Of a stretch of 35,339 nucleotides of DNA, positions 15,604 to 30,279 are shown in pieces. A model generated the notes under the pieces. That model saw nothing but the letters and a program-made list of their open reading frames with translations. It was not told the origin of the DNA and did not search any database. The DNA is from an uncultured Planctomycetaceae bacterium (GTDB lineage Bacteria; Planctomycetota; Planctomycetia; Planctomycetales; Planctomycetaceae), in assembly GCA_903896675.1 (NCBI GenBank), contig CAITYU010000051.1, positions 1 through 35,339 on the forward strand. The letters run 5' to 3'. Each line of letters begins with the position of its first letter. Within the stretch, counting starts at the first letter, position 1. The translations under genes were made by a program, and so were the position numbers.

Positions 15604-16373
15604 AGCCGCTGCTCCCGACGCCGCAATGCCTCCGTTGCCTCCTCCAGCAGCGTCAGACGACCACCATACGTACGCTCCAGATTCTCCCGAGTAAACACCT
15701 CATGCGTCGGACCCTCCGCCACCACACGCATGTTCAGCAAAACCACAGAATCAAAATAATCCGGAACCGTGTGCAGGTCATGATGGATCACAACCGCCGT
15801 CCGACCCGCAGCACGCATCGATCGCAGAATTCCCACAATCGCCTGCTCCGTCGCCGCATCCACCGCCGCAAACGGTTCGTCCATCAGGTACAAATCCGCT
15901 TCCTGAACCAGCGCTCGAGCCAGAAAAGTGCGCTGCTGCTGACCTCCCGACAACTGACTGATCTGACGGTCCGCCAGTTCCCCAATCCCCACCTGCTCCA
16001 GCGCTCGACGAGCCGCCTCACGATGGACACGACGAACACGACCAAACCAGCCAATCCTGCCATACAAACCCATCGTCACCACATCCAGTACACTCACCGG
16101 AAAATCCCAGTCCACTGACTCCCGCTGCGGCACATACCCCACACGCTGACGAGACTCCCGCCACGGACGCCCAAAAATCTCCACTCGACCAGACGCCTTC
16201 GGCACCAGATCCATCACCGCCTTCAACAACGTACTCTTTCCCGCACCGTTCGGCCCCACAATCCCCACCAGACGCCCCGGTGACACGTCAAACTCAACAT
16301 CCCAGATCACCGGCCTGCGATGCCACGCAACCGTCAGATCCTGAATCGATAACGGCAATGTCTGATCACTCAC
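15600..16373 (-). CDS. metal ABC transporter ATP-binding protein
   Basis: 257 residues from the GTG at 16373. It contains Walker A GPNGAGKST, Q-loop YVPQRESVDWDFP, signature LSGGQQQR, Walker B LYLMDEP and the H-loop IHHDLHTV. The segment VDWDFPVSVLDVVTMGLYGRIGWF is characteristic of manganese/zinc (ZnuC/TroB/MntB-type) importers. The frame is open back to 16430, but the GTG at 16373 is preceded at 6 nt by a perfect AGGAGG and gives an N terminus (VSDQTLPLSIQDLTV) of normal length, so I choose it. It overlaps the end of the binding-protein gene by 8 bp. It energises uptake through the two permeases encoded downstream. Confidence 0.95.
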   Translation of the reverse strand: MSDQTLPLSIQDLTVAWHRRPVIWDVEFDVSPGRLVGIVGPNGAGKSTLLKAVMDLVPKASGRVEIFGRPWRESRQRVGYVPQRESVDWDFPVSVLDVVTMGLYGRIGWFGRVRRVHREAARRALEQVGIGELADRQISQLSGGQQQRTFLARALVQEADLYLMDEPFAAVDAATEQAIVGILRSMRAAGRTAVVIHHDLHTVPDYFDSVVLLNMRVVAEGPTHEVFTRENLERTYGGRLTLLEEATEALRRREQRL

Positions 16374-17397
16374 GAATTGCCTCCTGAACTTTCTGCCACG
16401 CCGCAAATCCGCCCTCGGGCACCCGACCACCCAGGGCCCGAGTCACAGTTGTCAGGTTGTGCTCCAGCATCCCCGCATACGTCCCCGCCGATGTGCCTGA
16501 CTCACCCATCGCATCAGAAAACAACTCTCCACCCAACACCACCTGCCACCCCCGCGATCCCGCTCCCTCAATCAACGCCTGCATGTTCTTCTGCGATACA
16601 CTGGTCTCCGAAAACACTGCTGAAACTCCCCGACTCACCAGCAGATCCACCAACTCATTCACTCGCAGCAGACCAGCCTCCGACTCCGTCGATATCCCCT
16701 GCACACCCAGCACCTCCACTCCATACGCCCTGCCGAAATAACGAAACGCATCGTGCGATGTCACCAGCACCCGACGCTCCTCCGGCACCGACTGCAGACA
16801 CGCAACACCAAACTCATGCAGCGCGGACAACTCCGCCAACAAAGCAGCTCCACGCGCGGCAAACTCCCCCGCATACTCAGGCTGACCTTCAGATAACGCC
16901 GTCACAATCGCGGGTACACTGCGAGACCACAGGGAGGCATCCATCCACACGTGAGGATCCGGGTGACCACCAGACCCCTCCTCGTCAATCAGCAACATCC
17001 CCGGCGGGATCGAAGATCCCAGAACCAACACCCTCTGACGCTCAGACAGACGACTGATCGTCTCCTCCATCCGCCCCTCAAGCAGCAAACCCACACTCAC
17101 TATCAAATCTCCCGACATCAAATCACGTATGTCATCGCGAGTCGGCTTGTACAGATGCGGATCCACTCCACTCCCCATCAACTGCTGCACCTCCACTCGG
17201 CCACCACCCACACGACGCACCAGATCCGCTGCCATCCCAACCGTGGCCACCACCCGATACAATCTGCCACCACCCTCCGCCCCGCCAGCACCCGCCCCGG
17301 TACCGCTGCCGGAAGAACCCGAGTTTCCGCAACCAGCCAGCGCCAACAATGCCAGCGCCGGCAGCAATACCAGCCTGATCAGCCGACATACACCCAT
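16366..17397 (-). CDS. metal-binding lipoprotein of the ABC transporter (TroA/ZnuA family)
   Basis: 343 residues, first gene of the four-gene operon. The N terminus is a lipoprotein signal (LALLALAGC, lipidated C23), followed by a Gly/Ser/Ala linker (24-44). Cluster A-1 metal ligands are visible: H81 (GVDPHLYKP), H149 (PDPHVWMD), H215 (VTSHDAFRYFG) and D295 (GELFSDAMG). This His3-Asp set is like TroA, so zinc, manganese or iron are possible. There is no long His-rich loop of the ZnuA type, which slightly favours manganese or iron. An ATG at 17397 starts the protein. The promoter and candidate operator lie at 17522-17550. The protein should capture the metal outside the inner membrane and deliver it to the permeases. 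Confidence 0.94.
   Translation of the reverse strand: MGVCRLIRLVLLPALALLALAGCGNSGSSGSGTGAGAGGAEGGGRLYRVVATVGMAADLVRRVGGGRVEVQQLMGSGVDPHLYKPTRDDIRDLMSGDLIVSVGLLLEGRMEETISRLSERQRVLVLGSSIPPGMLLIDEEGSGGHPDPHVWMDASLWSRSVPAIVTALSEGQPEYAGEFAARGAALLAELSALHEFGVACLQSVPEERRVLVTSHDAFRYFGRAYGVEVLGVQGISTESEAGLLRVNELVDLLVSRGVSAVFSETSVSQKNMQALIEGAGSRGWQVVLGGELFSDAMGESGTSAGTYAGMLEHNLTTVTRALGGRVPEGGFAAWQKVQEAIRE
16380..16385 (-). promoter_or_regulatory. perfect Shine-Dalgarno AGGAGG deciding the ATPase start
   Basis: On the minus strand AGGAGG is followed by six bases and then the GTG at 16373. This is the strongest ribosome binding site noticed in the window and fixes the start of the ATPase gene inside the end of the binding-protein gene. 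Confidence 0.85.
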
Positions 17398-20510: not shown

Positions 20511-23500
20511 CTACGCCTTTCCGGATACCTCCGCTCGACCGCCCAATCCCCCACGCAGCCGACTTCGCACCGCCGCCAGAATCCGAGCTGCCTGGACCCG
20601 CGCATCCATCACCAGACTGAAACCCGCCGGAATCAGAATCAGCGTAAAGACCGTGGAAACCACCATCCCACCCAAAACCACAGCCCCCAGGCCCTGATAC
20701 AGCTCGCTGCCAGCGCCCACGCTCCAGACCCACGCTCCATCGGCATAAATCGGCAACGGTACCACCAGCGGCAGCATCCCCAGAACCGTGGATAATGTGC
20801 TCATCACAATCGGACGCATGCGAGTCCTCACGGTCTCACAGACCGCCTCCACCGGAGGCATCCCCTCCTCACGCATGTAATTCAACGCCTGATGCACAAT
20901 CAGAATCGCGTTGTTCGCCACCGTCCCGATCAGAATCACAAACCCCAGCATCGTCAGCATATCCAACGGCTGCATCTGAAAAATATTCATCACCCGCAGC
21001 CCGCCCAGTCCACCCACCAGAGCCAGTGCCACACTGATCATCACCACCAGCGGATACACAAACGACTCAAATAATGCCGCCATCAGAAGATAACTCAGCA
21101 GCAGCGCCAGCAGCAGATTCCACTTCAGGTCATACCACGTGTCCGCCAGCTTGTCCGCAGTGCCCGCCAGACGCATCTGATACAAACCACTCTGAAATCG
21201 CGGACTCTCCATCAGCACCTTCTGCACCCGCTCATTCATCTTCACCATCGCAGCTTCCAGCGGAATCCCCGGCGCCGGAGTCAGCTGGATCGTGATCGAA
21301 CGCTGACGCTCAGAATGATTCACCTGCTCCGGACCACGACTGAGCAGCACGTCCGCAACCGCCGACAACCGCACTGTCTGGCCATTCGGCGTTCTGATCG
21401 GCAGATTGTCCAGATCATGCGAATGCGCGGCAAAGTCTGCTGCACCGCAGATCACCAGATCAATATTCCGCCCCTCATGCCGGTACTCCCCGGCAAATGC
21501 CCCGTCCACCAGAGCATTCACGGCGTAGCCCAGCGATGCCGTCGTCACTCCCAGCTCCGCACACTCCTCCGCACGAGGTACCACATGCAGCTCAGGACTG
21601 GACAGATCCAGACCGGGAATCGGACGCAGCTGATTGCCCTCGGTCATCGGAAACGCCGCCATACTCAACCCAAATGCCTTCTGCGCCTCCTGCACCAGTT
21701 CCTCAAGATCCGGACCCGTGATCTCCAGATCAATCGAACGGCCGCCCGTCAATCCACTGTCAAACAGACTGGACTGACTGACAATCGGTATCACCCCAGG
21801 CTGCGATCCGGCCGCCCGAGCCAGAATCGGAATCAACTCCCCCGCTCGCAGCTCGTCAACAGCCTTCGCACCGAGAAACAGCATGCGACCGCGAGCCACA
21901 AAGAAGAAGTCGTTGATCCGCGGACTTCCCGGAACCGCCTCCCCCGTCCAGTAAGGCGCTAACTGACGCTCAATGTTGTCCCCCAGAGAAATCATCTGAT
22001 CAATGTTATACCCGGGCGGAGGCAACAGGATGGCAATCACCAGATTGCGGTTCCCGTTCGGCAGATACTCCGTGGCCGGCCACAACAGCAGACTCGCCCA
22101 CACACTGCCCGCACTGAATAACACCACCACCAGCAGTCGCCACAACCAGCTGCCGCGAGCCGACATCAGGCGCTTCATCCCGCCCGCCAGACGCTCGTTC
22201 AGCCAGTGACTGCTCCGCACCAGACCAAACAATCCCGTCGGACCAAAACTCATGTCATAATCCAGCGACTCCAGCTTCAGCCCACCCAGCAGCCAGACCG
22301 ATGCCGCCGGAATCACCGTAATACTGACAATCAGCGAAATCCCCACCGAACAGGCAATCGCCAGCGAAATGTCCTTGAACAACTGCCCCGCCTGCCCCTG
22401 CACAAAAATCACCGGCACAAACACCACAATCATCGTCAATGTCGCCGCCAGCACCGCACCCCAGACTTCCTGAGTCCCCTGGATCGCCGCCTCTCGAGGA
22501 GACTTGCCCATCTGATAGTGCCGAAAAATATTCTCCAGCACCGTGATCGCATTGTCCGCCACCATACCCACCGCAAACGCCATCCCCGCCAGACTGATCA
22601 CATTGATGCTGCGACCAAACAGCTTCATGAAAATAAACGTCGCGATCACACTGATCGGAATCGACAGACCAATAATCAGCACCGTCCGCAGACTCTTCAG
22701 AAACAGCAGCAGAATCACCACCGCCAGCGCTCCGCCCGAATACACGTTGCTTTCCACCAGCGCCGTCGCAGAATCCAGATAGATCGTCTCGTCATAGACC
22801 TGCTCCATGTACAGGCCCTTCGTCGCCAGAATCCCCTGATTCAGCTCCTCACACGCAATCCGCAGATTACGGCCGTAAATCCGAGTACACTCGGCAAGCT
22901 CCAGCGATGAAATCTCACCATCACGATTCAGATCCAGCTCTGCCCGAGGTGGCCCCATGATCTCCTTGACGTTCGTGTTGGGAGCCTGCTGAGCATTCAC
23001 TGCCAGCGCATTCAATCCCATCTGACGCACCACGCCGTCAGGCTTCCTGTAAGCCACACCAACCTCTGCCACATCGCGGACTCGCACAGGAGCATTATCG
23101 CGAGTCGTGATGATCGTCTCACCCACCTGCTCAGGACTGGTGAACTGCCCCAGAGTACGCACCACATTCCGCTGCTTGCCCTCCGGAATGTCGCCCGCCG
23201 AAACGTTCTGATTCTGCGCCGCCAGAGCAATTCGCAGATCGTCAATCGTAATCCCCAGTGCCGCCAGACGCGGAGGATGCACCTCCACTCGGAATTCCTG
23301 CTCCTGACCGCCAAACACATTCGCATTCGCGATCCCCGCAATCCGCTCAAACTCCGCCTCAATGTACTCCTCAGCAAACTTCCGCATCAGCGCCGGATTG
23401 TTCCGGCCCTCCGTAAACACTCGCAGCACCGGGTACTGCTCCGACAGCAGATTCACCTTCGGCAGACTGATCGGACCAGGCTCCGACATCAGGGCCTCCA

Positions 23501-24106: not shown

Positions 24107-25516
24107 TCACCGCCCGGCAGCACCCCCGCCACTCGCTGCGGCCGCTCCCTCTGCAGCAGCCGCCAGCACTGTCACCGTCTGAAACGCTCGCAGTCGCTCG
24201 GCACCCTCGGTCACCACCTGCTGACCCGCCGCCAGTGACTCACCCTGCACCTGTATCCACAACCCAGTCCCCAGACCCAGCGTCACCATCACCTGCCGAA
24301 CACTCAGCGGCTTGCCCTCCTCCACAGGATTCACCACAAACACAAAGGCCCCCCGTGAAGTACGCACAACCGCATCCTTCGGTACCAGTAATGCCTTCAC
24401 TGAAACACCGCGAAATGCCGCCTCCGCCATCATCCCCTCACGCAGCGCCGGAGTCGGGGGGCTGGTGCTGAGATCTATCTGGTTGCGCACCCGAATGATC
24501 ACCGGAAAACTGCGCGAACCCTTCTCCCAGTTGCTCCGCGGTACCACCGCAGCCACCTGCCCCGTCCACTCCCGCACACCGTCCGCTGCACGCTCTCCCG
24601 CAGACACTCCACTGCCGCTGATCCGCAGACTCACCTCACGTCCCGGTGACACCTGATCGATGTACTGCTGATCGATCTGCACCTCCACCTCCACCTCGTC
24701 AAGACGAGCCAGAGTCAGCACCGGAGCCCCCCTGGAAAGCCACTGCCCCACATAGGTGTGCTCCTCCACTACAAAGCCGTCAAACGGAGCCTTCGTCAGA
24801 CGCTTCTCACGCTCAGCACGCAGATACTCCACATGCTTCTGCTGTGACTCAAGCATCGACTGCGCCTGCAGCTTCTGCTCCTCACGCGCACCTGACGCCG
24901 TCCGCTGACAGGCCGCTCGAGCCGCCAGCAGAGTCTGCTCGGCGGAATCAAACGCATCCTCAGCATCCCGCAGCTCAGACTGCGTCGCCGCACCACGGCG
25001 ACTCAACGCCCGCAACTCCTCCAGACGACGCTCCGCATTCGACAGTGTCACCTGCAATGCCTGCACTCGCGCCTGAGCCTCCTCGACGTCCTCCTTCCGA
25101 GGCGTCTGAAGCTCCGCCAGCTCTGCTGCACGCGCCGCCGTCAATGCCTCCTGCTCCTGCAACTCCAGATCCGTCGACTCCATCCGCAACTTCGAAAGCA
25201 AGGTCCCCGCTGGAACATACTCACCCACCTCAACAGGAAACTCTGCCACCACTCCGTCAGCACCCGATGCCACCACACTGAAATGACGAGGACGCACGTT
25301 GCCAGTCGCCCGAAATTCAGGAGCGACAGGCTCCTCACGAATCACCTCCGTGCGGACCAATGCCGGAGGTGCTGCAGCCGCAGACACATTCCCAGTCTCT
25401 ACCGCCGCCGGCCCACTGTCCCGACCACAACCTGCAGCACACAAAAGCACCAGCAGAGACCAACACGCCGTCTGAACAAATTGAGCTGAATTCATAGGTT
25501 TCTTCTTCAGAAACAT
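24107..25516 (-). CDS. RND efflux periplasmic adaptor (MFP/HlyD-type lipoprotein)
   Basis: 469 residues. A lipoprotein signal ends at LLVLLCAAGC, so it is probably anchored in the inner membrane. The barrel-sandwich hybrid is split in the usual way (SGADGVVAEFPVEVGEYVPAGTLL and LTKAPFDGFVVEEHTYVGQW) around a long alpha-helical hairpin (about residues 115-235, rich in Ala, Glu, Gln and Arg). A beta-barrel and membrane-proximal domain follow, then a C-terminal Ala/Gly-rich tail. It links the RND pump encoded next to an outer-membrane channel. The start is ATG 25516 (MFLKKKP); ATG 25495 is also possible. Confidence 0.92.
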   Translation of the reverse strand: MFLKKKPMNSAQFVQTACWSLLVLLCAAGCGRDSGPAAVETGNVSAAAAPPALVRTEVIREEPVAPEFRATGNVRPRHFSVVASGADGVVAEFPVEVGEYVPAGTLLSKLRMESTDLELQEQEALTAARAAELAELQTPRKEDVEEAQARVQALQVTLSNAERRLEELRALSRRGAATQSELRDAEDAFDSAEQTLLAARAACQRTASGAREEQKLQAQSMLESQQKHVEYLRAEREKRLTKAPFDGFVVEEHTYVGQWLSRGAPVLTLARLDEVEVEVQIDQQYIDQVSPGREVSLRISGSGVSAGERAADGVREWTGQVAAVVPRSNWEKGSRSFPVIIRVRNQIDLSTSPPTPALREGMMAEAAFRGVSVKALLVPKDAVVRTSRGAFVFVVNPVEEGKPLSVRQVMVTLGLGTGLWIQVQGESLAAGQQVVTEGAERLRAFQTVTVLAAAAEGAAAASGGGAAGR

Positions 25517-29218: not shown

Positions 29219-29695
29219 TCAGGATTCGCGCTCAGACTCGTCACGCTCAACCAACAGATCCCAGATGTCGACCGTGTTTGACGACTGCCGCAGAAACTTG
29301 CAGAAGTCCGGACTGCGCAAATGACGCGAAATGTTCTCCAGTCCACGCAGATGATCGCCCGGACGATCCGGCGGCGACACCACCATAAACAGAATGAACA
29401 CGTCCTCGCCGTCCAGACTGGCAAAGTCCACGCCAGCCTGAGAAATTGCGACTGTCGCCGACAGCTTCTCTACCGAAGCATGCTTTGTGTGCGGCACCGC
29501 AACCCCATTGCCAATCCCGGTCGATCCCAGCTCTTCACGCTTCAGAATCGCTGCAATCACCGCCTCTTCATGCTCGGCACTGATCGTTCCCGAAGCCTTC
29601 AGACTGGCCACCATCTCGCGAATGACCGCCTCTTTGCTGGTCGCCTTCAGAGTTGGCAGGATCGCTTCCTTAATGACAAACTCAGTCAGTTTCAT
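29219..29695 (-). CDS. ptsN: PTS IIA-like nitrogen regulatory protein
   Basis: 158 residues, the normal length of a fructose/mannitol-type EIIA domain. The phosphorylation site is H69 in [14 protein letters not shown], preceded by ILKREELGS and followed by [20 protein letters not shown] and a C-terminal helical part ([16 protein letters not shown]). Without an EIIB or EIIC domain, and set between hpf and an HPr gene, it is best read as PtsN (EIIA-Ntr), a regulator of potassium and nitrogen/carbon balance, not a sugar transporter part. ATG at 29695 is the start. It lies 121 nt after hpf and 56 nt before the HPr gene. Confidence 0.93.
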
Positions 29696-29816
29696 GATCG
29701 TTGTGTTCCAGAGATAAACGCAGACCCCACCAGTGACCCGGCAGAGAAATTAGACCACACGGCAGAACTCCCGGCCTGACTCAACACTCTTTCGTCAGAC
29801 CACTGCCGGTTAGATT

Positions 29817-30170
29817 TCAGCCAGCCGATTCGCCCTTCTCTTCCGCCGCACGAGCAGCGTCAGAGACCGATGTTGCATGACGACGATCCCGGTGCTTCTC
29901 CTTGTACTTGTGCACCTGATGCTCCATCTTGTGCAAAGCCTTGTCAAAGGTCACTCGAGAATCCTCGCCCTCCACATGCGTCACAATACTGTGATATCCC
30001 TCAATCTCCACAAGCATCTCAACGTCAACACGAGACCCCTCAAACTCCAGTGTCACATCAATCTCGCTGACAGTATCCAGATACCGCAGCAGCTTTTCTG
30101 ACTTCTGAGTAATGTACTCGCGAAGATCCTGACGGATCTGGCCGTGTCGACAGGTGATGGAAACCTGCAT
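29817..30170 (-). CDS. hpf: ribosome hibernation promoting factor (short form)
   Basis: 117 residues in the HPF/RaiA family. It has MQVSITCRHGQIRQDLREYI, then KLLRYLD, the beta strand IDVTLEFEG and the helix TFDKALHKMEHQVHKYKEKHRDR with the basic residues that sit in the 30S decoding channel. The C-terminal dimerisation domain of long HPF is absent. HPF stalls 70S ribosomes in stationary phase. It is first of the hpf-ptsN-HPr cluster, a layout known from rpoN loci, although rpoN is not here. ATG at 30170. Confidence 0.94.
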   Translation of the reverse strand: MQVSITCRHGQIRQDLREYITQKSEKLLRYLDTVSEIDVTLEFEGSRVDVEMLVEIEGYHSIVTHVEGEDSRVTFDKALHKMEHQVHKYKEKHRDRRHATSVSDAARAAEEKGESAG

Positions 30171-30197
30171 TGCTGATTCCTTGTTTGCCGGTGAAAG

Positions 30198-30217
30198 TCC
30201 GGGACCGAAGCCCCGGA
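30198..30217 (-). other. stable UUCG-loop hairpin between the SGNH gene and hpf
   Basis: On the minus strand TCCGGG-GC-TTCG-GT-CCCGGA forms an 8-bp stem with a UUCG tetraloop, followed only by CTTTC. It lies after the SGNH gene stop (30280) and about 28 nt before the hpf ATG. It may be a terminator with a poor T-run or a leader structure of hpf. Confidence 0.5.
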
Positions 30218-30279
30218 TTCTACTGCCCGGAGCCTGTCAGGAAAAGGCTGCGTTTGCCCGTATGCTGAATTCGGAACGA

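Follow-up and report, generated by a model that had tools for sequence, protein, structure and literature searches.

A 28-residue insertion bearing an EF-hand-type calcium loop in the PN2 subdomain of a planctomycete RND efflux pump

Within a 35,339-nucleotide stretch of DNA from an uncultured Planctomycetaceae bacterium, hereafter the window, we find an RND permease of the AcrB fold whose PN2 subdomain carries a 28-residue insertion built around a canonical EF-hand loop (Table 1). The insertion, its conservation, its single origin, its EF-hand profile and its location in PN2 are drawn from sequence comparison and a predicted structure. On balance, and with moderate confidence, we favour the reading that this EF-hand graft was gained once and serves as a Ca2+-held structural staple, giving PN2 its shape for docking the adaptor or for coupling between protomers. 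Pumps that carry it probably need or use calcium.

Table 1. Coordinates of the pump, its adaptor and the features of the insertion in the window
Feature	Position	Strand	Basis or remark
RND (AcrB/AcrD-fold) permease, 1161 aa	20511..23996	minus	ACR_tran E 1.2e-186; Foldseek AcrB 8ffk_A E 1.5e-60
Adaptor (membrane fusion protein, HlyD/CusB type)	24107..25516	minus	HlyD_D23 E 1.7e-15
Lineage-specific 28-residue insertion, residues about 350-377	22866..22949	minus	edges known to within 1-2 residues
Canonical EF-hand calcium loop D355-x-N357-x-D359-G-x-I-S363-x-x-E366	22899..22934	minus	translation; orthologue conservation; EF-hand profile matches
Exit (F) helix of the EF-hand, residues 364-374	22875..22907	minus	AlphaFold secondary structure
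K393, equivalent of AcrB S319/MexB Q319, where adaptor contact is reported	22818..22820	minus	phmmer

The permease is homologous to AcrB-type permeases over the length of the protein, which places it in the ACR_tran/AcrB-fold family. Its AlphaFold model (mean pLDDT 84.8) matches AcrB and AcrD along the whole chain, and VIA-align superposes it on AcrD with a Z of 49.9 and an rmsd of 2.7 over 978 aligned residues. The gene directly upstream encodes the adaptor and runs in the same orientation. An adaptor gene also precedes the pump in the named loci with enough flanking sequence; it is thus the conserved partner gene of the pump and supplies the adaptor component of a tripartite efflux system. 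No outer-membrane channel gene was identified beside the adaptor, and a comparison of the named neighbourhoods found no regulator or signalling gene conserved near the pump, only the adaptor. In two of these loci (L107 and L101) the pump is followed downstream by homologues, 64-84% identical, of two small window ORFs without assigned function (29222-29749 and 29820-30236, both minus), so that the neighbourhood is loosely kept. The window also encodes a ZnuA-type zinc-binding protein (16366-17397, minus, E 1.5e-67).

Residues 355 to 366 of the permease read DLNRDGEISSLE, a textbook EF-hand loop (D355-LNRDGEISSL-E366) exactly where the initial annotation had placed it, with codons at 22899-22934; the slightly wider range given there, 22896-22934, contains the loop plus one flanking Leu. 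Shuffles of the permease produced the strict loop with a probability of 5e-5 and a laxer form with 7.5e-4, and a search across the whole pump chain found no second EF-hand loop. On the full protein from the window, the match to Pfam EF-hand_5 is sub-threshold (E 0.018; 14.9 bits against a curated cut-off of 25.9). When orthologous segments were searched, 18 of 20 matched EF-hand_5, with a best E of 1.8e-4, and five of the 20 also matched Dockerin_1 weakly. A profile of ten segments compared with all PDB sequences returned CaBP1 at E 5e-7, a value summed over CaBP1's EF-hands, followed by calmodulins and polcalcins; this match is the strongest evidence that the insert is an EF-hand rather than a merely acidic stretch.

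To place the loop among related pumps, we assembled 41 orthologues carrying it (EF-positive; 55-97% identity, from 41 genomes that span 16 genera of the window's family) and 29 of that family's more distant pumps, which lack it (EF-negative). The segment equivalent to residues 325-412 is 88 amino acids long in every one of the 41 EF-positive pumps and 60 in every one of the 29 EF-negative pumps, which refines the extra stretch of about 30 residues reported initially to an insertion of 28. The acidic ligands, whose loss from homologues would have counted against the calcium-loop assignment, are retained in all 41, and each orthologue has the full pattern of ligands at loop positions 1, 3, 5, 9 and 12, Gly at 6 and a hydrophobic residue at 8. 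Position 1 is D355 throughout, encoded by both GAC and GAT; positions 3 and 5 (residues 357 and 359) are always Asp or Asn, with Asn at position 3 in 15 of 41; G360 at position 6 is invariant; position 8 is Ile, Leu or Phe; position 9 (363) is Ser or Thr in all; and position 12 (366) is Glu in 36 and Asp in five. By contrast, the non-ligand positions 4, 7 and 10 (358, 361 and 364) accommodate 8 to 11 residue types. Among 16 closer sequences, the ligand codons with Gly6 had a pN/pS of 0.084, as against 0.38 elsewhere in the insert and 0.21 over the remainder of the protein; these are simple pairwise counts with synonymous sites near saturation and non-independent pairs, so that the contrast alone is meaningful. 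The codon comparison thus indicates that purifying selection acts on the metal ligands of the loop while the rest of the insert has changed.

This pattern bears on several other accounts of the motif. That it arose by chance or as an artefact (a frameshift, an assembly error or a random match) is negligibly probable and can be ruled out by the open frame in 41 genomes, the fixed length, the purifying selection and the shuffle probability of 5e-5. A decorative, metal-free insertion, in which the acidic residues provide surface charge or a docking motif, would fit a short, single insert that has no long entering helix and leaves the full protein under the Pfam cut-off; we nevertheless judge it very unlikely, since surface charge alone would not impose the retention of positions 1, 3, 5, 6, 9 and 12 in 41 of 41 sequences while their neighbours vary. 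It is also improbable, if somewhat less so, that the loop mainly binds Mg2+, another divalent ion or a lanthanide, or that it contributes to the route taken by an exported cation. EF-hand loops do bind other ions, and the Asp at position 12 in five of 41 sequences favours Mg2+, but the Glu found there in the other 36 is the residue that selects for Ca2+, the fold of the pump is that of AcrB/AcrD, and the insert, to judge by its position in the sequence, sits away from the AcrB drug path, on the last helix of PN2.

The insertion is confined to one clade: all 41 orthologues have it and none of the 29 sister pumps does. Among the 80 GTDB relatives listed, only the nearest planctomycetes carry it, and these carriers largely repeat the 41-orthologue set under public names. 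When the class was scanned with a profile of the segment, the window's family alone gave full-length matches (E about 1e-42 to 1e-47), and those elsewhere were partial, covering about 53-87 of the 88 positions; of 392 genomes sampled across the phylum, only eight matched at E 1e-20 or better, all from that family. In a tree built without the insert columns, the EF-positive pumps form one side of a branch with an SH-aLRT of 100, and a single change accounts for the distribution. Because the insertion is absent from all outgroups, a single gain is the simple reading (the root of the tree was not inferred), and the sequences are consistent with one acquisition in an ancestor within one planctomycete family. 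Both kinds of pump coexist in six genomes (G016, G017, G018, G044, G070 and G081). An earlier suggestion that the loop relates to marine calcium levels is not supported, since the nearest relative that bears a name, a MAG, comes from the freshwater lake Lac Pavin.

The genome from which the window derives (G000) is itself rich in EF-hand matches, with 29 EF-hand_5 hits at E <= 0.1, several of them close together in one frame, on contigs C5, C55, C117, C282, C455, C576 and others. Judged by contig in the profile search, the pump described here is the only RND protein among them. Such a genome is a possible source of the inserted module.

Closer examination of the AlphaFold model indicates that the insert splits the last PN2 helix (about 298-316 in AcrB) on the periplasmic side. 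The initial annotation had correctly called the location periplasmic and had set it between a porter domain and TM2; the model puts it inside the PN2 helix instead, and not in the membrane, where burial would have spoken against a calcium loop. The chain runs from a helix at 343-347 through an invariant G348-P349 and a single turn at 351-354 into the loop, and G375, immediately after the exit helix, is invariant in 41 of 41 orthologues. Helices at 378-387 and 389-392 and a strand at 395-402 then lead to TM2. The block-mean pLDDT is 87 or more from residue 341 to 400 and about 87-92 in the insert. As modelled, the insert therefore comprises a calcium loop with an exit helix rather than a full helix-loop-helix. 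Folded alone, the segment reached a pLDDT of 70 and its Foldseek matches, mostly to the calmodulin family, were insignificant (E above 4). The segment 136-221, considered as a second insertion that packs on the EF-hand, was rejected, as it has a similar length in the EF-negative sisters.

Cryo-EM of MexAB-OprM showed the membrane-proximal domain of MexA-II pressing on PN2 at Q319 and shifting it, a movement that in MexB frees PC2 of the adjoining protomer and so lets the exit open; the corresponding AcrB substitution S319C abolishes novobiocin resistance (PMC7532149). A separate analysis likewise assigned adaptor recognition mainly to DN/PN2 (PMC6975555). In our pump, phmmer pairs residue 394 with residue 320 of both AcrB and MexB, so K393 corresponds to MexB Q319 and AcrB S319. 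The split helix ends at this equivalent point, and the insertion is therefore well placed to alter adaptor-PN2 coupling, which is why we favour a structural Ca2+ staple, one that would belong to the adaptor or PC2' interface. The insert lies about 16 residues before K393 in sequence and could face elsewhere.

Ca2+ binding, occupancy and a role in docking are the inferred part of this reading, as follows. A periplasmic Ca2+ ion would fill the loop most of the time and act as a staple, and the filled loop would fix the direction of the split PN2 helix. The insert would thereby form a rigid knob on PN2 beside the site at which PN2 is pressed by the membrane-proximal domain of the adaptor and holds up the neighbouring protomer's PC2; this placement comes from sequence alignment. 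Without Ca2+, then, the adaptor would not dock correctly, nor would PN2 make the movement that opens the exit. Given that the entering helix is one turn only and the chain holds no paired EF-hand, affinity for Ca2+ could be low. A bolder version, in which adaptor docking or the rotary cycle is calcium-gated through the PN2 EF-hand, which each trimer would hold in three copies where PN2 meets the adaptor or PC2', seems doubtful to us.

The initial annotation had proposed a calcium-dependent structural lock or sensor. The lock agrees with the reading that we favour, and our analysis yielded no evidence for the sensor. As a regulatory sensor, the loop would fill and empty with periplasmic Ca2+ and so switch the pump or its adaptor contact, a possibility that we hold only tentatively. 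Single unpaired EF-hands can bind weakly, so occupancy could track millimolar Ca2+; the Asp at position 12 and the Asn at position 3 seen in some orthologues would allow affinity to be tuned. However, a high-affinity site would seldom be empty in a periplasm that faces about 0.1-10 mM Ca2+, and periplasmic Ca2+ is expected to be fairly steady and near external levels. Such levels usually fill a normal EF-hand, which makes a sensor less likely than a structural staple. The insert does lie within PN2, which is allosterically important (PMC7532149), but the sole conserved neighbour is the adaptor, with no signalling partner or regulatory gene conserved nearby.

The adaptors of EF-positive pumps (24107-25516 in the window, and those of L100-L103 and L105-L107) share a loop that is two residues longer and reads PRSxWxxGSRxFPV-like. 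They also share a longer loop before the LxEGM motif. Both features are absent from the adaptors of EF-negative pumps, a comparison that covers only two adaptors from closely related EF-negative planctomycete pumps. Set against the AcrA sequence, the PRSxWxxGSRxFPV-like loop probably lies near binding box 4. That box has been placed against DN/DC (PMC6975555). The comparison shows that the adaptor face has also changed in the EF-positive lineage; because many features differ between the clades and only two EF-negative adaptors were compared, this does not prove coupling to the EF-hand.

The transmembrane proton relay also departs from that of AcrB. Residues 481-482 in TM4 read D-N at the positions of AcrB D407-D408, and TM10 has Asn at AcrB K940 (residues 1028-1029). 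D481 (AcrB D407) and the TM11 Arg are kept, and the replacements of D408 and K940 by Asn are common to EF-positive and EF-negative pumps and to distant relatives. Given these altered residues, the whole RND branch may couple ions differently from AcrB.

A conserved 28-residue module in PN2, where the adaptor reportedly controls opening of MexB, amounts to a natural experiment. Because EF-positive and EF-negative sister pumps coexist in the same genomes, what PN2 does in coupling adaptor to pump, and how metal might control efflux, can both be tested directly. No RND pump is known to carry an EF-hand or to be calcium-dependent, and our literature search on EF-hands or calcium dependence in RND pumps, AcrB and planctomycetes, incomplete in coverage, found nothing relevant. 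The closest well-studied systems are AcrB, AcrD and MexB, HAE-type RND multidrug permeases with HlyD-type adaptors, which share with the planctomycete pump a common fold over about 1000 aligned residues, an adjoining adaptor gene and the periplasmic PN1/PN2/DN and PC1/PC2/DC layout, but have no counterpart to its insertion in the last PN2 helix. The EF-negative sisters (L088 and L078 in the same family, for example, and Bythopirellula L140) are about 45-50% identical, with the same transmembrane relay residues and, where checked, the adaptor upstream; they lack the insertion, and their PN2 helix is, by sequence, continuous through the 60-residue segment. Canonical EF-hand proteins such as CaBP1, calmodulin and polcalcin have an identical ligand pattern in the 12-residue loop and an exit helix, whereas the pump has a single loop with a one-turn entering helix, embedded in a transporter subdomain. 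The calcium loops of type I dockerins likewise combine a loop and exit helix with a short entering part, but dockerins have two repeats and bind cohesin, while the pump has one loop and is matched better by EF-hand_5.
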